11,841 nucleotides of DNA from a bacterium. GTDB lineage: Bacteria > Spirochaetota > UBA4802 > UBA5550. How positions within the stretch are numbered: the stretch's first letter is position 1; every line of letters begins with the position of its first letter. The notes beneath the pieces are model-generated. The model had not been told where the DNA came from and made no database searches. It saw only the letters and a list, made by a program, of their open reading frames with translations. A program made the translations under genes and the position numbers. Shown here piece after piece: positions 1,507 through 11,733 of the stretch. The stretch spans positions 1-11,841 of the forward strand of contig JAAENB010000742.1 in NCBI GenBank assembly GCA_024224995.1, read 5' to 3'.

Positions 1507-2733
1507 TTATATTTTATGTATTGTTTTAATATTAAAATGATACAACCCCTGCGGGTGTTGCTCTCCCTCCACAACAATACAACGATACACGCTCAGCACC
1601 AGGTCTGATGAGTCAAACATGGCAACTTTCACTTTTCCTCCCGGTTGTATTATTTTTTTCACACCCAGGGAATCCACAGAATAATTATTATATGTTCGAA
1701 AGAATAGAGAAAAGTCTACTACCTCAGATGGAGAGAGTGTATATGCAAAACATAACCCCAATTGACTATATTGAAAACTATTGTATGAATCAAAACTGTT
1801 GTATGATTGATAATTATAAAAAGCTGCCAGGGTAAACTGAAGCAGCTTAAATGGAGTAAGATTTATTGTCATCCCTCCACCAGCGATTAGCATTCCATTC
1901 TCATCTAATCTATTTTTTAGATAAATAACATCGTTAGTATAAACATCATAGTCGATCTCATCAAAATAAATATCTTTACTATATGAAACCCCTCCTCCCA
2001 TTACCATAAAAGTTATAGCAAAGGAATTGGTAAAATTGTTTCCAACCCCGACATAAAAAATACCGGGAACGGAATATACCAAGTCCCCATTTTCTGTAAT
2101 ATCAGCCGATAAACCGGTCTCCACCATAAACCTATGCCCCATTTCATAAGCATCATCACCGCCCCATAAATCAGAACCATAAACGGTTACAACACTCCCC
2201 CAATCACTATCCATGTAAAGATTCCCATCAAGCATTGTTGAAACTTCAAACATTTCCGAAATAACTCCGGAAACAACCGGTTTAAACTCTTCGATAGACG
2301 AGATCTTTTTTGTACTCATATACAATATTTCTTTTGATTTAATCGAATACAATTTAAGATTTATTTCATATTCAAGTTCATTCAAATCCAGGGAGCTGAT
2401 AATAATCCAATCCCATGATGATTCCTCACCAATAGTAAAGGCTTTAATCTCAGTAAGATCTTCAAGTTGAAATTTTTCCCGCAGGCTGTTAACTTTATCC
2501 CTGTCGACCTGTTCGAGATCATTTCTTTTATAAATATATTCTTCTATCATATTAACAACAATACGGTTCTGGGTCATAGAATCTTCAGTGGATTCCTGAA
2601 AGTATTCCTCGATAATAAGAACTTTTTTCGGTTTCTCTTTGGATTCCCGGGTCTCTGCAAAGCCATAAGAGGCGAGCAAAAAGAAAAATAATACAAAACT
2701 CATAACATATTTAAGAGATCTGGTTCTACTCAT
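1507..2733 (-). CDS. exported CsgG/LpoB-like domain protein with a probable outer-membrane barrel
   Basis: The protein has 408 residues. Residues 1-26 form a signal peptide (basic start, hydrophobic core, GFA before the cut), with no lipobox. Residues about 37-163 resemble the CsgG/LpoB/TolB-N alpha/beta fold: strand KKVLIIEE, helix NRIVVNMIEEYIYKR, then LEQVDRDKVNSLREKFQL, strand WDWIIISSLD, strands to EILYMS and a final helix. Residues about 170-408 are rich in Gly, Tyr, Phe, Ser and Asn with alternating amphipathic strands and few helices, consistent with an outer-membrane beta-barrel. The last residue is Ile rather than the usual Phe, so barrel assembly is less certain. It is third in the operon, 4 bases after the anti-sigma-like stop, with AAAGGA 7 bases before ATG 2733. 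It may report envelope state to the upstream membrane protein, whose periplasmic domain looks similar. The role is inferred from context. Confidence 0.8.
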   Translation of the reverse strand: MSRTRSLKYVMSFVLFFFLLASYGFAETRESKEKPKKVLIIEEYFQESTEDSMTQNRIVVNMIEEYIYKRNDLEQVDRDKVNSLREKFQLEDLTEIKAFTIGEESSWDWIIISSLDLNELEYEINLKLYSIKSKEILYMSTKKISSIEEFKPVVSGVISEMFEVSTMLDGNLYMDSDWGSVVTVYGSDLWGGDDAYEMGHRFMVETGLSADITENGDLVYSVPGIFYVGVGNNFTNSFAITFMVMGGGVSYSKDIYFDEIDYDVYTNDVIYLKNRLDENGMLIAGGGMTINLTPFKLLQFTLAAFYNYQSYNSFDSYNSFQYSQLGLCFAYTLSPSEVVDFSLFFRTYNNYSVDSLGVKKIIQPGGKVKVAMFDSSDLVLSVYRCIVVEGEQHPQGLYHFNIKTIHKI

Positions 2734-3451: not shown

Positions 3452-3972
3452 TATAGCAGATCCTCCATGCTTTCCACACCGCGTTCACGTTTCAGAAAAT
3501 CCAGGATAGTTTTCAGTACCCGGCTGTATCGATAGCGGACCTGTCCCTTATTAAGACCCAGGTTTTTGGCAGCGTCTTCGTATGAGTAGTACTGGACTGC
3601 GATATAGTCAAAAATAAGCCTGTCCATTTCGTCATCAATGCCATCAATAGCCTCTTTCAAAATGATTCGCGCGTCCTTAAACCCGTTAATAAAGGTCAGG
3701 GCAATATCACCGGAAGCGTGAAGCAGGGCGATATCATCAGGCATGTTCTTCTTTTTTCTATAGTAAGAAACCAGTTTGTTCCGGACCGCGCTAAAAAGCC
3801 ATGCCCTGAGATGTTCAATATCATCCAGGTGAATAAAAAGTTCGGTAAAAACATCCTGTGTTAAATCATCGGCGGTTTCCTGATCGCTTACTTTTGTGTA
3901 AATAGAACCATTGATTATAGAATAATAATCTCTATATATTTCTTTAAACAGGTTCTTCCCTGTTGAGACCAT
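3451..3972 (-). CDS. ECF-type RNA polymerase sigma factor (operon copy)
   Basis: This is a 173-residue ECF sigma factor that directs RNA polymerase to a specific promoter set. Region 2 spans about residues 7-75, with the core-binding signature DDLTQDVFTELF (35-46) and the -10-reading stretch LRAWLFSAVRNKLVSYYRKKK. The linker is about 76-110. Region 4 (about 115-165) has the helix-turn-helix YSYEDAAKNLGLNKGQVRYRYSR. I chose ATG 3972, which has AAGGGG 6 bases upstream. The longer frame opens with GTG 4021-4023, but that codon has GAGGG touching it and lies upstream of the promoter -10, so it would not be in the transcript. The gene heads the operon with the anti-sigma-like gene, overlapping it by one base, and is divergent from a paralogous sigma gene. 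Family assignment is firm; the regulon is unknown. Confidence 0.92.
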   Translation of the reverse strand: MVSTGKNLFKEIYRDYYSIINGSIYTKVSDQETADDLTQDVFTELFIHLDDIEHLRAWLFSAVRNKLVSYYRKKKNMPDDIALLHASGDIALTFINGFKDARIILKEAIDGIDDEMDRLIFDYIAVQYYSYEDAAKNLGLNKGQVRYRYSRVLKTILDFLKRERGVESMEDLL

Positions 3973-4006
3973 ACAATACCCCTTGTTGTAACACTTTTGT
4001 TTAAGA

Positions 4007-4039
4007 GTATAGACGCATTCCACCCCTCAAAGTGCTGAA
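4007..4039 (-). promoter_or_regulatory. ECF-type promoter of the sigma/anti-sigma operon
   Basis: Read on the minus strand: TTCAGCACT (4039-4031, -35 position), 13 bases, then TGCGTCTATAC (4017-4007, -10 position with the CGTC core typical of ECF promoters). An A-rich run lies immediately upstream, like an UP element. The same elements with the same 13-base spacing occur on the plus strand at 4064-4096. The predicted transcript start is near 4000-4005, leaving a leader of about 30 bases before ATG 3972. Confidence 0.7.
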
Positions 4040-4072
4040 CTTTTTTTGGAAAATAAAAAAAAATTCAGCACT
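4031..4072. promoter_or_regulatory. inverted repeat centred between the divergent sigma genes
   Basis: AGTGCTGAA (4031-4039) and TTCAGCACT (4064-4072) are perfect inverted 9-mers. They are extended inward by T7 (4041-4047) against an A-run (4056-4062) after one mismatch. The outer 9-mers are the -35 elements of the two facing promoters; the inner A/T tract may act as a shared UP element or bend. It could also serve as an operator or form a cruciform, but the promoter reading explains it best. Confidence 0.65.
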
Positions 4073-4096
4073 CTGCGGTCTTTTCTGCGTCTTTAC
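4064..4096 (+). promoter_or_regulatory. ECF-type promoter of the divergent sigma gene
   Basis: TTCAGCACT (4064-4072), 13 bases, then TGCGTCTTTAC (4086-4096). Every position but one in the two blocks matches the minus-strand copy. Nine A residues precede it. The predicted transcript start is near 4098-4102, so ATG 4109 would have almost no leader, while TTG 4124 keeps GGAGG in the mRNA. Confidence 0.7.
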
Positions 4097-4123
4097 CCAA
4101 TATAACATATGGAGGACATACGA

Positions 4124-4651
4124 TTGAAACAAAAACAAAAGCATAAGAATAGTGAATTTTCTAAATTATATTATTGCTACTACCACTATATATTTAGCTT
4201 GATCAACATTAAAATACAGGACTATGATACAAGCTGTGATTTAACCCAGGAAGTTTTTATGCGGCTTTTTTCAAAGCTGGACACAGTTACCAGCATAAAG
4301 CCGTGGTTAATCAGTGTACAAAAAAATGTACTGTTTGAATTCTATCGAAAAAACAAAAAACCGAATCAGGCAGCCACAACCTTTGAAACAGGCTTCGATT
4401 CGGAATCATTATTTCATAGCGACTTTCATGAAGTAAAAATGATTGTTGATGATGCAATCAAAAACACCTGCAATCATAACGATAAAGCTATCCTTGAACT
4501 GGTTGCCTGCCAAAAATTCAGTTATGCAGAAGCCGGGAATCATATTGGACTCAATAAAAACCAGGTTCGATACAGGTATAACCGTATTACAAGAAAAATA
4601 CTTTGTTATTTCAAGAAAAAAGGCATCAATAGTATTAAAGATATTTTATAA
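4124..4651 (+). CDS. ECF-type sigma factor paralogue (divergent copy)
   Basis: This is a 175-residue ECF sigma factor, similar to the operon copy along its full length. Region 2 has CDLTQEVFMRLFSKLD (about 38-53) and IKPWLISVQKNVLFEFYRK. Region 4 has FSYAEAGNHIGLNKNQVRYRYNR (about 132-154). Both copies end alike (GINSIKDIL here, GVESMEDLL in the other). Eleven of 13 residues in the recognition helix GLNKxQVRYRYxR are identical, so both probably read the same -35 element. I chose TTG 4124 because GGAGG (4111-4115) sits 8 bases upstream. An in-frame ATG at 4109 overlaps that GGAGG and lies too near the predicted transcript start; it would add five residues. No anti-sigma gene follows, so the protein is either unrestrained, held by the neighbour's anti-sigma factor, or controlled only by transcription. 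It is Lys/Asn-rich and more AT-rich than its paralogue. Confidence 0.88.
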   Translation: MKQKQKHKNSEFSKLYYCYYHYIFSLINIKIQDYDTSCDLTQEVFMRLFSKLDTVTSIKPWLISVQKNVLFEFYRKNKKPNQAATTFETGFDSESLFHSDFHEVKMIVDDAIKNTCNHNDKAILELVACQKFSYAEAGNHIGLNKNQVRYRYNRITRKILCYFKKKGINSIKDIL

Positions 4652-4774: not shown

Positions 4775-4812
4775 AACCATGCTATGCGAAGCAAACTCCC
4801 CATAGCATGGTT
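4775..4812. terminator. hairpin between convergent genes
   Basis: AACCATGCTATG (4775-4786) pairs perfectly with CATAGCATGGTT (4801-4812) around a 14-base loop containing GAAGC. It lies 18 bases after the ankyrin gene stop and about 124 bases after the divergent sigma stop. A T-run is present on the minus strand only upstream of the stem, so this is not a canonical intrinsic terminator. It may instead define mRNA 3' ends by blocking exonucleases, or terminate in both directions. Confidence 0.5.
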
Positions 4813-4829
4813 TACTAAAAAAACCTATA

Positions 4830-7307
4830 TTACTTCGCACCCGCTTTAGCAGGAGCCTTCTTCTTCGTTGCAGCTTTTTTCTTCGCAGCGGCTTTTTTTC
4901 TATCCTCGATCTTTTTCTTCGCAGCAGCCTTTCTCTTTTCAATGGCAGCTTTCCTGGCATCGGCACGTTTTTTAATGGCGGCTTTTCTCTTTTCGGCTCT
5001 TTCTTTTTTGAGCGCGGCCTTCTTTTCCCTGGCCAGCTTCTTGCGGTAGTTCTTAAGAGACGTATCCAGAACACGGATAATGGCTTTAATCTTATGCTCT
5101 TTGTTAATCTCTTTAGCAATATCAAGAACGTTTTTACCGTCGGCCACGTCAGCAACAAGGGCGCCGTTCCGCAGCAGCAGCCGAACCATACCGTAATTGC
5201 GCTCGGTCACGGCGTGCATTAAAACAGTATGTTTATTCTCAAGCCGGGACTCCACCGGGGCTTTCTTCTTCAGGAGCAATTTCGCCATAGCAAAATCTTT
5301 ATTCGCAATGGCGTAATTTAACGCGGTAAACCCTTTACCCGCTTTATGCTTAACACTGGCACCCTGCTTCAATAAAGACTTAACCATATCGTATTGACGA
5401 TGGTTAACCGCTCTTAGCAGGATAGTAAATTTTTTATCATCCGTAGTTTCAAGACTGGCACCTTTTTTAACCAGCTGTGAAATCCCGTCAAAATCATCAT
5501 TATCCACGGCCTGCCATAAGAGCTTGTTAAGGGCGTCGGCGCTCTCGGGTTTGGCGGCAGCTGCCGCGGCATCGCTAATCTCAGTTTCCGTCAGGAGCCT
5601 GGTATTCCGGTCCAGTCCTTCAGTGAGGTTAGTCATGGCAGCGGGAAACGTATCTTTAAGAATAATATCATCAGGATCTCCAAAGACCACTTTCATGGCA
5701 GCGGTATCAACAACATACAGGCAATCATCAACAATAAGATAGAGATGCTTGTTGGAAATAGCCTTTTGCAGTTTTTTTGAAGGATAAATAGCGTCCGAAT
5801 CCGAATAGATCCGTAAAGAACGCTTAAAGACCTTGCATAAGGGATCACCAGTAACAGGGATGATGCAGGGGTTAACCTCAAACATTGTTACGAGCCCGGA
5901 TTTTTCCGGAGCAGCCTTTTTGTCGGCGGTCTTCTTCCCGGGTTTGGGTTTAAGCGTTTCGATAACGGGTTCATACATAAGAAGAGCCGTACTATCCTGG
6001 CCTTTTAGCGGAGCAAGGCAATAATAGGTTCCCTGTTCGTATATATACATAGTGTCTTCGGGAGAGAATCCTTTATAGTACATCTCAACAGCCCGGCTGC
6101 TGAAAACCACATCTCCCCGCATTGTATCAATAACAAGATAGATCAGGTTTTGAAAATCATTGTTCAATGTCCAGTCGGTATTACCCCGGAGCATAACCGG
6201 AACAAACCGGTGCCGCATGGAATAAAGGGGATGCCGCTCCGGAGCATGCTGTAGAAGCCGGGAATCGCCCAGGCTGTCTACAACCTGCATAGACGGGTAT
6301 TCAGGAAAGAATTTATCCCATCTTACCCCCATAGACGAAGGCCGGTATCCAAGCAGAACAGGATAGCGGGATCTTTTTCCGTGAGTATAGAAGAGGCCAT
6401 AGCCACTTTTGCCCAGCAAATATCCCAGGTACCTGTCCACGCCGTGGGCGGACATGCTTTTCTTTTGTTTGATGTTATAGACTCTGAGACTGGTATGCCT
6501 CTTGCCTTTGGTGCCGTCGTAATAAATCATATTTCTGTGCTGCACGAATTTATCAACACCCGAAAGTTCATCAATGGTATCGTAGTGGCCGGTTTTTTTA
6601 TCGAAAAGCACAATGGCACTGCTGCCGTCTTTTACCGCGAGATAATTATCAAAAAAGAGCGGGGATTCCGGGGCATTCTTAAACTGGTTAAAAGTCCAGA
6701 GAACTTTACCCGTTTGCGGGTTTATGGCTTCCAGCATTTGTCCGCCTTTTTTCCCGAGAGCTTTCCGCATCCTGAACATGGAGGTAGAATCGCTCATGAG
6801 GCCAAGACCGGCCGGTGAATTTTCACCGTCCAGGGTTTCGTTCCAGAGAACTTTGTTAGTTCCCAGGTCTACGGCAAAATGGATTATTTCCTGTTTTGAC
6901 TCATTTCCGGAATACTGTTTGGTAACAATGTACGAAAAGACTTTATCAACGGCAGCAGACCGTTTTTTGTTTAAACTATAATCACTAATAAAGGAACTCC
7001 CCGTTGTTTTCACCAGTGAAATAGAAGCCTCTTCGTTGGTGCCGAGAAAATTGAGGGAAATTGTATTTTTACTATCCTCAATAGTGTCAATTATTGCCAG
7101 GCGGTAATTGGTTTTGGTGTATTTGGGGTGAATGGGGCTAAAAGTGTCTTTAATCTCTTCGAGAAGAACTACACTCCGGTCATCTAACGGGACAAAATCG
7201 ATAACAGTACGTCCCATAAGAAGAAAACTCAAAAGATACAAAATCACCGGGATAGCGATCACTGTGGGAATAACTACTTTTTTTAGTATAGATTTGTTTA
7301 TCTGCAT
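4830..7307 (-). CDS. membrane-anchored PQQ-like propeller / ankyrin protein with basic tail
   Basis: The protein has 825 residues. Residues about 9-31 form a membrane segment after a short Lys-bearing start, so the rest is probably periplasmic. Residues about 65-560 look like a PQQ-type beta-propeller: LGTNKVLWNETL (148-159) and NPQTGKVLWTF (196-206) match the TGKvlW repeat signature, while the other blades are diverged. A low-complexity Lys/Pro stretch (452-470) interrupts it. Residues about 591-750 hold four to five ankyrin repeats (ILLRAVNHRQYDMVKSLLKQGA, VLMHAVTERNYGMVRLLLRNGA). Residues about 753-825 are an almost pure Lys/Arg/Ala/Glu tail ending in histone-H1-like AAAKKKAATKKKAPAKAGAK, partly coiled-coil-like. 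GGAG and AGGA lie just before ATG 7305-7307. The PQQ-like part is more likely a scaffold than a quinoprotein enzyme. No partner is evident; binding to an acidic polymer through the tail is inference. Confidence 0.85.
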   Translation of the reverse strand: MQINKSILKKVVIPTVIAIPVILYLLSFLLMGRTVIDFVPLDDRSVVLLEEIKDTFSPIHPKYTKTNYRLAIIDTIEDSKNTISLNFLGTNEEASISLVKTTGSSFISDYSLNKKRSAAVDKVFSYIVTKQYSGNESKQEIIHFAVDLGTNKVLWNETLDGENSPAGLGLMSDSTSMFRMRKALGKKGGQMLEAINPQTGKVLWTFNQFKNAPESPLFFDNYLAVKDGSSAIVLFDKKTGHYDTIDELSGVDKFVQHRNMIYYDGTKGKRHTSLRVYNIKQKKSMSAHGVDRYLGYLLGKSGYGLFYTHGKRSRYPVLLGYRPSSMGVRWDKFFPEYPSMQVVDSLGDSRLLQHAPERHPLYSMRHRFVPVMLRGNTDWTLNNDFQNLIYLVIDTMRGDVVFSSRAVEMYYKGFSPEDTMYIYEQGTYYCLAPLKGQDSTALLMYEPVIETLKPKPGKKTADKKAAPEKSGLVTMFEVNPCIIPVTGDPLCKVFKRSLRIYSDSDAIYPSKKLQKAISNKHLYLIVDDCLYVVDTAAMKVVFGDPDDIILKDTFPAAMTNLTEGLDRNTRLLTETEISDAAAAAAKPESADALNKLLWQAVDNDDFDGISQLVKKGASLETTDDKKFTILLRAVNHRQYDMVKSLLKQGASVKHKAGKGFTALNYAIANKDFAMAKLLLKKKAPVESRLENKHTVLMHAVTERNYGMVRLLLRNGALVADVADGKNVLDIAKEINKEHKIKAIIRVLDTSLKNYRKKLAREKKAALKKERAEKRKAAIKKRADARKAAIEKRKAAAKKKIEDRKKAAAKKKAATKKKAPAKAGAK

Positions 7308-7360: not shown

Positions 7361-7420
7361 AATCGCTTCAAAAATCAATTAAAAAATTGAAAATTCTTAT
7401 AAACAGGCGTGTAGATAAAT

Positions 7421-7452
7421 CTCATAACGAGAGGAAGCCCTCTCATTATGAG
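7421..7452 (-). terminator. terminator-like hairpin after the large lipoprotein gene
   Basis: CTCATAA-C-GAGAGG (7421-7434) pairs with CCTCTC-A-TTATGAG (7439-7452) with one mismatch and a 4-base loop, 24 bases beyond the lipoprotein stop. On the minus strand only ATTTAT follows, so the T-tract is weak. Its core resembles the hairpin at 11702-11733, which follows the paralogous gene at the right edge. Confidence 0.6.
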
Positions 7453-7476
7453 ATTCTCATTATTTCGATAACCGGA

Positions 7477-10400
7477 TTACTTTAACTTTAAAATCCTGAT
7501 GAATCCCTCATCGGAACAAACTATAATCAGTTTACCATCAGGGGCAATATGCTGGTCCACACTGTAGCCCGAGGCCCATTCTGTGGTAATGAAACCCAAA
7601 TAATCCCAATCTGATTCACTGTAGCGTTTTAGAACCTGGAAAGGATAACCGGAAGAAGGCATTTGAAAAGACATAATGCAATTACTTTCACTGTCTACAT
7701 ATAATGACCTTAAAGACTTACTATTTACCGGCGCAAAACCCATGTCGGTCCATGATGTATAGCTGTCCCATTTTTTAAGATGTATTCTGTACCAGTTACC
7801 GTAAACACTTTTATCACTATAATCCTTAAAGGCGATAACCGGTTTATGATCAATAGGATCAAAGTATAAGCGGTAATAAGAATCAAGCTGGTATAAACCG
7901 GGCATTATCACGCCAAGATCTGTCCAGGTAGAACCGTCTTCCCATTTTATCGCTTTGAATTCACTATTTTCTTTATCGAGAAATACAACAACCGGGCTAT
8001 TATCCAGAGGATCGGAGAAAATTTTTGTATAGCCCGTAGGAACAGTAGTAATATTCCCCGGGTTAGACCAGTTGGTTCCGCCTTCCCATTTCAAAAGTTT
8101 AAGAATTGAATCAACAGTATCGGAATAAAAAACCAACAATTTGTTGTCGGAAGGATCAATCCAGAGATAACGAAAATCTGTTTTTTCAGTAAACCCCAGG
8201 TTTAACCAGGTGGTTCCACTTTCCCATTTCAGAATAGACCTTTGATTATCATTACTGGAATCACGAAATGAAATTATTGGTTTATTATCCGATGGATCAA
8301 GAATTAAGGAAAAGTTGGTTAATGAGCCTCCATCATTGATTGAACCCATATCTGTCCAGGTGGTTCCACTTTCCCATTTTCTGATATATACTCCAGTTGC
8401 ACTATAATAACTGACAACCGGCTTATTGTCAGAGGGGTCAATTACCATACAAGCGGAACCACCACCAGCAGCCCCTTTATTTGCAGTGCCCAGATCTGTC
8501 CATTCCATATCATTTTCCCATTTCAGAACCCGAAATTTGTTGTCATTGTTACGATCCTGAAGGGCAATAAGCAGTTTATTATCCTGGTCCATGATAGATG
8601 TTTTTTCGAAATAAGTATCTTCATCCGAAGAAAACACTTGTGAGAAATCATCACCAAAGGTATAATTCATTTCAGCAACACCGGAGTTCTCAAGCCCTTC
8701 TCTAAAAGCATGGGCTCGTATTAGCGTATCCGATGAAATTACAACTTTGCCGGTATAGACCAGGGCAGTATCACTGGTAATGGGATCACTTCCGTCCAGG
8801 GTATATTTAATAGAAGCACCTGAAGTATCAGTCTTTATTTCCACGGCTATTTCCGATATGGCATAATGCGTATTGGTCTGTTCAAAGTAGGGAGTAAGAG
8901 CAAAAGCCTCAACAACCGAATAGGTCTCTGCTTTTATTTCACTCATCTGCCCATTCTCACCAACGGCGATAAATTTTAATGTACCGCTCCAGTCCCAATA
9001 AGTTCCATCCCAGGTAAAGGTTAGTGGTTGGCTGTATTCCCTGGTACTCCCCCCCCAGGGATAGGGTGAAGAATTCTCCGGAACAGGATCAGATCCATTC
9101 GTTGTATAATAAATTTTAGCGGGTTTATCAGAAGTAAGCGTAATAGTAACACTGTCCCCATAGGTTCCCCCTGGTGGAGATGCCGTTACCACAGGAGGAG
9201 AAAATTGTTCACAAACGTACTGTACTTCCTGAACAGCTTCCCGGTTCCCGACATGGTCAACGGCAAAAAACTTTACCGTTATTTCCGGGTATTGGGGTGT
9301 CAGGTTTATTTCCAGCGGCGTTGTATATACCCCACCAGGATCACTGCCGTTGATACTATAATAGATAATCGCGGTCTCACTTGCCGAAAGGGTCACCGTA
9401 AACGTTTCAGCAACAATGCCCGCTTCCGGTGAAGCAGTAGTTACGGGAGGTGTTGTATCTACAATATATTCACGGGTCAGGGTTGCTCCCTGGTTACCCG
9501 CAGTATCTACGGCCATACATTTAAGCGTTGCCCCGGGGTCCGTAATTAAAAACGGAGAATCATAAACCAGGGAAGCGGAAGAGGGCTCGCTGCCATCCAG
9601 CGTATAATAAATAACAGCAGGCTCGCTGGCAGAGAGGGTCACGGTTATATCTTCCCAGTACGTTCCTCCCGATGGAGACGCGTTAGCGTTAACAGAGGGA
9701 AGGATCGTGTCGATATTGTAATGCCCCGATTTAACCGCTTCACGATTACCGGCTGTATCAACGGCAAAATATTTAAGAACCGCTCCGGGATCGGAAATAG
9801 TAATAGGTGAACTGTATATACTTGACCCTGTTGTAGGAGTACTGCCATTCAGAGTATAATAAATAACAGCAGGTTCATTTGCCAAAAGAGCCAGTGTTAC
9901 GGCTTCATTATACAGACCTTCATCAACCGAAGGGCTGGTAACGGGAGCAGTATCGTCGATGATATAGCTTATGGATTTTTCACTTTCCCGGTTGCCCGCG
10001 TAATCAACAGCAAAATATCTTATTGTGATATCTTCATTAACGATAATGGGAAACGTGTATTTTGCCGAACAGGTCGTCGGTACGGACCCGTCAAGGGTAT
10101 AATAAACAGACGCCGATTCATTGGAACTTAAGGTTACAGCAGTATCAGTATTTACGCTGTTATGAGCGGGATTCGCAGTTGAACGGGGAATATTCATATC
10201 CCCGGTATAAATAAGCGAGAGTCCTTCTTCATCGGAGACATAAGCAATATTGTCCGATACATATACCCCCGCAGCCGTTCCTTCGGTTTGATACGATTTA
10301 ATAAGCTCAGGAACAGCGGGATTGGAAATATCAACAATCATTAAGCCATGGTTATTGTCGGCAACATAGGCGATATTTCCCAGAACAGTCACTTCATAGG

Positions 10401-11586
10401 AATCAGATCCTTCAAGACAAAACTCACCGGCTTTCTCAAGATTCATACCGGAACCGTTATATCTTAAAATTTTCAATCCCGATGTGCCATCGGCAACATA
10501 GATATAGTTATTGTCGGCAGTGACACTCCAGGAAGTTCCATTTGTGTCCAGGACACCTATAGACTGGGGAGAATAGGGATTAGAAATATTAACAACACGG
10601 AGCCCTTTGTTTAATTCAGCCAGGTAAGCAAAGGAACCGTCAACATAAACCGAATAGATCGAATTGGAACAGGTAAATTTTCCAAGCATCTCCGGGTTTA
10701 CGGGATCACTGATATTCCAGATGAAGAGATTGCCGGCACCGTCCTCATCACCGGTGCTAACATAAGCACGATTATCCTTAACAAATATACCATATACCTG
10801 GTTTGCCTCTGTTTCATGAGACAGTTCTCCCACAAGGGAGAGATTGGCGGGATCGGAAATCGAATAAATAAGCACAGTCCGGCTTGATCCCCCGGCAACA
10901 TAGGCATAAGAACCGCTCACATACACATTGACAGCTTCACCGGAACTGTTATAGCTTCCCGCCAGGACAGGGTAATGTTTATTTGAGACATCAATAACCT
11001 TAAGCCCGTCCTGAAAATCGGCAACATAGGCGTAATTGCCGGAAACAAAGCTCTTCATGGCAGTTCCCCTGGTAAAATAGGATCCGGCCGAATATACCTG
11101 GTCCAGGTTCAAAAAATTATCGCCCTCAAGGCATTTTCCTTCCCCTTGCGCGTAAATGATAAAATTTTTATGCTTTGTACTGTTGCTCAGTATTGAGACC
11201 GAAGCGGAAAATTGATCCGGACTCTTTGGAGAAAACAGAAGTTTGAAAGTGGTACTTTCTCCACCGGGGACGGCCGCAGCCATTGCTGATTTATCAAGAG
11301 AAAAAGCGGCAGCGCCCTCACCGGAAAGTTCAATACCATGTATCTGCAATTCGCCGGTTCCGGTATTTTTTATGGAAACATCCGCCTGTATTGAATTATC
11401 AAAGGTACTTGATCCAAAATCAAAGCTATATTGATTATTAATGGCAACTGAATTTATTTCAACTACAATTGCGGGTTGTGAAGAGGTATCCGGATCACCG
11501 GGATCGGGATCCGGATCGGGGGAACCTCCACAGCCAATTATTGAAACGAGGAAAGAAAGAATAAAAACGGGAAAAAAATTTTTCAT
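7477..11586 (-). CDS. very large multidomain surface lipoprotein
   Basis: The protein has about 1369 residues. The lipobox SIIGC gives lipidated Cys19, followed by Gly rather than Asp and a Pro-Asp linker. Residues about 39-150 form an ASH/choice-of-anchor-D-like domain. Residues about 163-463 hold seven LVIVD units (AYVADFQDGLKVIDVSN, AYVADNNHGLMIVDISN), probably a seven-bladed propeller. Residues about 469-977 hold six chitobiase-C-type repeats (YYTLDGSxPT, YFAVDxAGNRE). Residues about 978-1369 form a second propeller with seven KWExxxxWxxLG and eight DPSDNKP units, ending ILKLK. I chose ATG 11586 because AAGGAG (11593-11598) is 6 bases upstream; the ATG at 11592 touches it. No catalytic domain is visible. 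It probably works as a displayed binding or scaffolding protein on the outer membrane. A paralogue is cut off upstream at the window edge. Confidence 0.9.
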   Translation of the reverse strand: MKNFFPVFILSFLVSIIGCGGSPDPDPDPGDPDTSSQPAIVVEINSVAINNQYSFDFGSSTFDNSIQADVSIKNTGTGELQIHGIELSGEGAAAFSLDKSAMAAAVPGGESTTFKLLFSPKSPDQFSASVSILSNSTKHKNFIIYAQGEGKCLEGDNFLNLDQVYSAGSYFTRGTAMKSFVSGNYAYVADFQDGLKVIDVSNKHYPVLAGSYNSSGEAVNVYVSGSYAYVAGGSSRTVLIYSISDPANLSLVGELSHETEANQVYGIFVKDNRAYVSTGDEDGAGNLFIWNISDPVNPEMLGKFTCSNSIYSVYVDGSFAYLAELNKGLRVVNISNPYSPQSIGVLDTNGTSWSVTADNNYIYVADGTSGLKILRYNGSGMNLEKAGEFCLEGSDSYEVTVLGNIAYVADNNHGLMIVDISNPAVPELIKSYQTEGTAAGVYVSDNIAYVSDEEGLSLIYTGDMNIPRSTANPAHNSVNTDTAVTLSSNESASVYYTLDGSVPTTCSAKYTFPIIVNEDITIRYFAVDYAGNRESEKSISYIIDDTAPVTSPSVDEGLYNEAVTLALLANEPAVIYYTLNGSTPTTGSSIYSSPITISDPGAVLKYFAVDTAGNREAVKSGHYNIDTILPSVNANASPSGGTYWEDITVTLSASEPAVIYYTLDGSEPSSASLVYDSPFLITDPGATLKCMAVDTAGNQGATLTREYIVDTTPPVTTASPEAGIVAETFTVTLSASETAIIYYSINGSDPGGVYTTPLEINLTPQYPEITVKFFAVDHVGNREAVQEVQYVCEQFSPPVVTASPPGGTYGDSVTITLTSDKPAKIYYTTNGSDPVPENSSPYPWGGSTREYSQPLTFTWDGTYWDWSGTLKFIAVGENGQMSEIKAETYSVVEAFALTPYFEQTNTHYAISEIAVEIKTDTSGASIKYTLDGSDPITSDTALVYTGKVVISSDTLIRAHAFREGLENSGVAEMNYTFGDDFSQVFSSDEDTYFEKTSIMDQDNKLLIALQDRNNDNKFRVLKWENDMEWTDLGTANKGAAGGGSACMVIDPSDNKPVVSYYSATGVYIRKWESGTTWTDMGSINDGGSLTNFSLILDPSDNKPIISFRDSSNDNQRSILKWESGTTWLNLGFTEKTDFRYLWIDPSDNKLLVFYSDTVDSILKLLKWEGGTNWSNPGNITTVPTGYTKIFSDPLDNSPVVVFLDKENSEFKAIKWEDGSTWTDLGVIMPGLYQLDSYYRLYFDPIDHKPVIAFKDYSDKSVYGNWYRIHLKKWDSYTSWTDMGFAPVNSKSLRSLYVDSESNCIMSFQMPSSGYPFQVLKRYSESDWDYLGFITTEWASGYSVDQHIAPDGKLIIVCSDEGFIRILKLK
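8206..8379 (-). repeat. near-identical DNA repeats in C-terminal propeller blades
   Basis: A 24-base block is identical at 8206-8229 and 8356-8379. The 150-base offset equals one 50-residue blade. It encodes KWESGTTW in both. The identity beyond protein need suggests recent blade duplication or gene conversion. Confidence 0.75.
9602..9873 (-). repeat. DNA repeats in adjacent chitobiase-C-type modules
   Basis: A 20-base block is identical at 9602-9621 and 9854-9873, 252 bases apart, equal to one module of 84 residues. It encodes the PAVIYYT strand of consecutive repeats. Confidence 0.7.
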
Positions 11587-11634
11587 AGACATCTCCTTGG
11601 ATTTTTTGTAAATAATTACAGACCTTTTTATATA

Positions 11635-11701: not shown

Positions 11702-11733
11702 AAAATAACGAGGGGGAAGCCCCTCGTTATTTT
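11702..11733 (-). terminator. intrinsic terminator after the right-edge gene
   Basis: A perfect 14-bp stem (11702-11715 with 11720-11733) with loop GAAG has a GC-rich top and AT base, with T-rich sequence following on both strands. It starts 8 bases beyond the stop at 11741, so it most likely ends the right-edge gene and may also insulate the downstream lipoprotein gene. Confidence 0.8.

Follow-up and report, generated by a model that had tools for sequence, protein, structure and literature searches.

What is the role of a bipartite motif that stands twice, back to back and in mirror image, between two divergent genes for related sigma factors? We examined such a pair in an 11,841-nucleotide stretch of bacterial DNA (the window), for which a preliminary description had reported the motif with an N13 spacer once on each strand. 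Both copies are present (Table 1). The minus-strand copy reads TTCAGCACT TTGAGGGGTGGAA TGCGTCTATAC and the plus-strand copy TTCAGCACT CTGCGGTCTTTTC TGCGTCTTTAC, so that both strands carry the common pattern TTCAGCACT-N13-TGCGTCTnTAC. As described earlier, the blocks of the two copies differ by a single base (19/20 identical), and their -35 halves form a central inverted repeat around an A/T core; the arms are perfectly inverted over 9 bp, with a core of 24 bp and with centres 33 bp apart, or about three helical turns. A run of nine A adjoins the plus-strand -35 block, seven consecutive A stand one base away from the minus-strand block, and the A/T-rich core may be a shared upstream element. 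Each motif sits upstream of the Shine-Dalgarno sequence of its gene, with CGTC ending 40 bases (sigma A) and 33 bases (sigma B) before the start codons. There is no third copy in the window: a search allowing up to three mismatches returns these two alone, and the site that comes next agrees at 13 of the 19 positions scored.

Table 1. Positions of the mirrored motifs, their parts and the adjoining genes in the window.
Feature	Position	Strand	Details
Third gene, likely in the sigma A operon	1507..2733	-	4-base gap after the membrane protein gene
Membrane protein, 237 aa	2738..3451	-	ATG overlaps the sigma A stop codon by one base (TAATG)
Sigma A, ECF sigma factor, 173 aa	3451..3972	-	ATG 3972, AAGGGG upstream
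Putative ECF promoter, sigma A	4007..4039	-	-35 TTCAGCACT, N13, TGCGTC, TATAC
Sigma A promoter, -35 TTCAGCACT	4039-4031	-	
Sigma A promoter, -10 TGCGTC	4017-4012	-	TATAC runs to 4007
A/T-rich core between the -35 elements	4040..4063		21/24 A/T
Putative ECF promoter, sigma B	4064..4096	+	-35 TTCAGCACT, N13, TGCGTC, TTTAC
Sigma B promoter, -35 TTCAGCACT	4064-4072	+	
Sigma B promoter, -10 TGCGTC	4086-4091	+	TTTAC runs to 4096
Sigma B, divergent ECF paralogue, 175 aa	4124..4651	+	TTG 4124, GGAGG 4111-4115

The mirrored pair is clearly non-random at its place. We searched dinucleotide shuffles for mirrored pairs in which a 9-mer and a 7-mer both match exactly, with equal gaps of 8-20 bases between the words and non-overlapping footprints. 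Shuffling the 151-bp intergenic region 10,000 times never produced such a pair, and among 200 shuffled versions of the entire window five contained one; the real window holds a single instance, the motif pair itself. With shorter words (8-mer and 6-mer) the counts rise to 5/10,000 for the intergenic region and 63/200 for the window. The statistical strength of the pair therefore rests on its intergenic setting, while the long-word pair is still unusual even allowing for the whole window. The motif as fixed after being seen occurs in none of 200 window shuffles. A cruder 33-base ungapped score of one strand against the other is weaker, with 50 of 2,000 intergenic shuffles scoring as high, probably owing to its dominance by the A/T runs, and a first bipartite scan, in which plain hairpins were also counted, gave non-zero values in 86 of 5,000.

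Identity between the copies is unevenly distributed: 9/9 in the -35 block and 10/11 in the -10 block, 5/13 in the spacer and 6/18 in the downstream DNA. Fourteen of the 24 bases upstream of the -35 block also match, seven of them in the A run beside the block and the other seven in a T run, the complement of the other promoter's A run. Frozen blocks around a free spacer are the pattern that two protein-contacted boxes would give. The motifs might instead be a functionless leftover of an inverted duplication that included a sigma gene and its upstream DNA, or the end of a mobile element, and the paralogy of the genes and the shared A run are in keeping with such an origin. We consider it very improbable: a leftover would not let the spacer drop this far while 19 of the 20 block positions stayed the same, and the duplication does not look recent, because sigma B is no closer to sigma A (60/172 identical residues) than to P0004, a relative of sigma A (66/172).

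Read as CAGCAC-N16-CGTC, the motif has the geometry of an ECF promoter. ECF promoters typically carry AAC at -35 and CGT at -10 (PMC3426412, PMC8103513). The CGT is present within TGCGTC on both strands, but the AAC, which is typical and not universal, is absent, and TTCAGCACT carries CAC. The earlier assignment to an ECF -35/-10 pair is supported by the CGTC of the -10 element and the N16 spacing; the -35 element is atypical. The conservation of the blocks supports the promoter reading, as it is maintained although the two sigma proteins share only 35-37% of their residues. We estimate a probability of about 80% that the two mirrored motifs are the -35 and -10 elements of two divergent ECF-type promoters. 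The same DNA could be viewed as the operator of a DNA-binding regulator, comprising the 9-bp inverted repeat and its 24-bp core, with the outer blocks as flanks or ordinary -10 elements. The perfect inversion of the arms and their spacing of about three helical turns would suit an operator, but no such regulator is found among the 7 window ORFs scanned, and the conserved outer blocks have features for which an operator would have no use, the ECF -10 core and its ECF spacing; we regard this explanation as improbable.

If the motifs are ECF promoters, transcripts are predicted to start near 4002-4006 on the minus strand and 4097-4101 on the plus strand, by analogy with Tt-RpoE1, which requires CGTC at -13 to -10 (PMC3397946). 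Starts of the Tt-RpoE1 kind near 4002 and 4101 imply predicted leaders of ~30 and ~23 bases. The intergenic gap, 3973-4123, contains no sigma-70-like match. Beyond it, on the plus strand, two weak matches occur (3911-3940 and 4124-4153), against 1.6 expected by chance in the scanned stretch; the former could in theory serve sigma B as a promoter. Positive autoregulation is described for most ECF operons, and a prediction counts ~55% of ECFs as autoregulated (PMC8103513); the promoter here is compatible with positive autoregulation.

The flanking genes had been taken for paralogous sigma genes; domain searches bear this out and place both among the ECF factors. Both products exceed the TIGR02937 cut-off of 42.9 bits (sigma A 56.6, sigma B 49.2), and they are 37% identical over 166 aligned residues, or 35% in the 172-residue alignment used above. 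The Pfam matches are weaker: in sigma A region 2 scores over the cut-off and region 4 below it, and in sigma B region 2 alone is found, just under the cut-off. The defining features of ECF factors were later narrowed to domain make-up (PMC8103513), and both proteins consist of sigma2 and sigma4 only, joined by a linker of <50 residues. A profile built from sigma A, sigma B and relatives matched nine PDB sequences, all nine of them ECF-named or ECF-type sigma factors. The AlphaFold model of sigma A (mean pLDDT 75.8, pTM 0.51) retrieves ECF entries in all of the top 24 Foldseek rows, with low whole-chain TM-scores of 0.30-0.37; the best matches include SigH, AlgU, sigma E and SigW. ATG 3972 and TTG 4124 are likely the true starts, and the database versions of sigma A (P0002) and sigma B (P0001) begin there. 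The longer listed starts are disfavoured because they fit the promoters poorly: GTG 4023 would place the start of sigma A upstream of its predicted transcript, and ATG 4109 would leave sigma B a leader of ~8-12 bases. Four relatives of sigma A (P0003-P0006, proteins only) share 41-55% identity with it, among them P0006, named HGW-Spirochaetae-1, at 42%. Sigma A and P0005 are identical at 12 of 12 linker positions, residues 92-103, around DIALTFINGFKDARII. A protein search needing shared 5-residue words, with sigma B as the query, returned sigma B itself and nothing else.

Which of the two sigma factors would read which promoter can be approached through their DNA-contacting regions. Alignment with E. 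coli sigma E places the -35 recognition helix on NKxQVRYRYxR, and this is the best-conserved stretch between sigma A and sigma B, with 12-residue windows from A residues 138-140 identical at 10 of 12 positions. The peak is modest, as 792 of 20,000 column permutations reach the same level. Over A residues 139-154 sigma A and sigma B agree at 11 of 16 positions, against 5-8 of 16 for sigma A and P0003-P0006, which are closer to sigma A overall (41-55% against 35%) and yet less alike in the recognition helix. By our reading of the alignment, the arginine matching sigma E R176, which corresponds to R175 in SigW (PMC6713349), is kept in both proteins, and sigma B also keeps the WL-x5-N positions of region 2.4. 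The shared recognition helix suggests that both proteins recognise a common -35 element. In the L3 loop, which contributes to -10 recognition, 3 of 10 positions agree between sigma A and sigma B and 3-5 of 10 between sigma A and its relatives; being equally variable within the A family, this loop speaks neither for nor against sigma B. In ECF factors the sigma2-sigma4 linker is described as not conserved (PMC8103513); here it is identical at 18-23 of 33-35 positions within the A family and at 6 of 35 between sigma A and sigma B. A linker conserved in the A family and lost in sigma B might be a docking site for an anti-sigma factor.

The gene order also distinguishes the two sides. When a membrane protein gene immediately follows an ECF gene, its product is often an anti-sigma factor. 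By this analogy the 237-aa product encoded directly after sigma A is a candidate anti-sigma factor, as Tt-TolB is the membrane anti-sigma factor of Tt-RpoE1 (PMC3397946). The protein has one hydrophobic stretch at residues ~79-99 and a C-terminal alpha/beta domain, the only part modelled with confidence from the single sequence, the N-terminal part being of low confidence; it matches no anti-sigma family over the cut-off (NepR model 12.8 bits, cut-off 100). The third gene encodes what is probably an envelope protein, with a hydrophobic, signal-like N-terminus seen by eye and no family match over the cut-off. Downstream of sigma B the next gene is convergent, and sigma B has no same-strand neighbour as a possible anti-sigma factor.

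From these elements a course of regulation can be proposed. The product of the next gene, the membrane protein, would hold sigma A until a signal freed it to join RNA polymerase, and the resulting holoenzyme would transcribe its own operon leftwards (sigma A, the candidate anti-sigma factor and the envelope protein) and also sigma B rightwards. Sigma B, with its near-identical -35 recognition helix, may then add transcription at both promoters. Because it lacks both the A-family linker and a downstream anti-sigma candidate, sigma B could amplify outside anti-sigma control. Taken to its end, this course would be a two-sigma positive-feedback switch, in which membrane-controlled sigma A triggers both genes and unrestrained sigma B keeps both promoters on; we think this full version unlikely, and 'switch', in the sense of bistability, is an inference.

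Within the reading of the motifs as ECF promoters, by which one or both sigma factors probably activate both genes, the part of sigma B in this course can be cast in two alternative ways. That sigma A acts on both promoters is a safer claim than that sigma B does. It is plausible, with a chance a little short of even, that sigma A alone reads both promoters and that sigma B targets different ones, a one-way hierarchy with no mutual loop. The operon with the membrane protein and the relatives of sigma A speak for such an order, as do the divergent linker of sigma B and its lack of relatives in the 5-residue-word search; the divergent paralogues ecfG1 and ecfG2 of Sphingopyxis granuli work hierarchically (PMC7083833). 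The retention in sigma B of the recognition helix and of the WL-x5-N positions counts against it. In the other arrangement both sigma factors read both promoters and thereby activate themselves and each other. The -35 elements identical on both sides, the nearly identical -10 elements and the common recognition helix favour this mutual loop, while the differing L3 loops count against it, with the reservation given above for their variability. We hold the mutual loop to be possible, but somewhat doubtful.

To place the motif and the sigma genes in a wider context, we considered other DNA. A scan of genome contigs matched at least 589 stretches, of which at least 111 encode a relative. The best 80 of these are distant ECF genes with 23-42% identity in the best segment, and closer relatives may lie beyond them. 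A sigma ORF is found at all 80 loci, a second sigma ORF within the fetched flanks at four, and a divergent sigma pair within 1.5 kb at one (L038), where the two lie ~850 bases apart; this rate of 1/80 is a rough guide only, because the set was selected for similarity to sigma A and includes many truncated loci. The 15-base bipartite pattern has no occurrence in the 1.08 Mb of loci L001-L082. Viral contigs contain one weak relative (28%) and, as a raw count, 47 sites of the bipartite pattern, with the TnTAC tail in none of the 47. Among plasmids, 214 records matched, every one at <60% identity.

The remainder of the window, apparently an entire contig, contains several further features. An 825-aa protein (4830-7307, minus strand) apparently has a membrane segment at its N-terminus; it also has ankyrin repeats at ~597-731, a long Lys/Ala-rich tail and a PQQ-propeller match that stays below the cut-off. 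A 1371-aa protein (7477-11592, minus strand), by eye a lipoprotein, has LVIVD repeats and six chitobiase C-terminal-like stretches; the contig end (11740-11841) seems to hold the C-terminus of a second copy, with a similar ...RILKLK ending seen by eye. Hairpin-forming inverted repeats at 4775-4812, 7418-7455 and 11702-11733 lie past the 3' ends of genes and are possible terminators. A long imperfect inverted repeat around CCTTTTGATTTTTTCAAC / GTTGAAAATCAAAAGG occupies 396-474, near the contig start, where no gene is evident.

The motif pair offers a promoter signature that can be tested, for an ECF family not yet characterised; to judge by the name of one of the four sigma A relatives, P0006, the family is perhaps spirochaetal. 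A common promoter for two paralogous sigma genes is a natural case for asking how duplicated sigma factors keep or lose specificity. In Leptospira interrogans, none of 11 putative ECF factors is described as biochemically characterised (PMC10144590), and transcript-start mapping identified sigma-54 sites and reported other motifs as not identified (PMC5243855).

Three known systems come close to the locus. The autoregulated Tt-RpoE1/Tt-TolB operon (PMC3397946) likewise combines a CGTC-type promoter with a membrane protein gene directly downstream; here, in contrast, a second sigma gene has a mirror-image copy of the promoter, and the anti-sigma factor is a candidate. The ECF41 promoter, TGTCACA-n16-CGTC with a spacing of 16 +/- 1, resembles the motif in its CAC-type -35, CGTC -10 and 16-base spacing, and it too is reported upstream of both the sigma gene and a partner gene, which are divergent in <20% of cases (PMC3426412). 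The partner of ECF41 is, however, no sigma gene, and the -35 elements differ outside the CAC (PMC3426412). The likeness is one of motif and not of membership, because sigma A and sigma B end right after sigma4, without the C-terminal extension of the ECF41 type. The nearest layout that we found is nepR2-ecfG1/ecfG2 of Sphingopyxis granuli, where of two divergent ECF paralogues one has an anti-sigma partner and one does not; the ECF motif there (GGAAC-N16-CGTT) is described on the nepR2-ecfG1 side only (PMC7083833), whereas here both sides carry such a motif. In the portions of the open-licence literature covered, we found no case of paralogous sigma genes with near-identical promoters on both sides of the region between them. 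Since autoregulated ECF promoters are common, the locus appears to combine a known kind of promoter with an uncommon two-sided layout.
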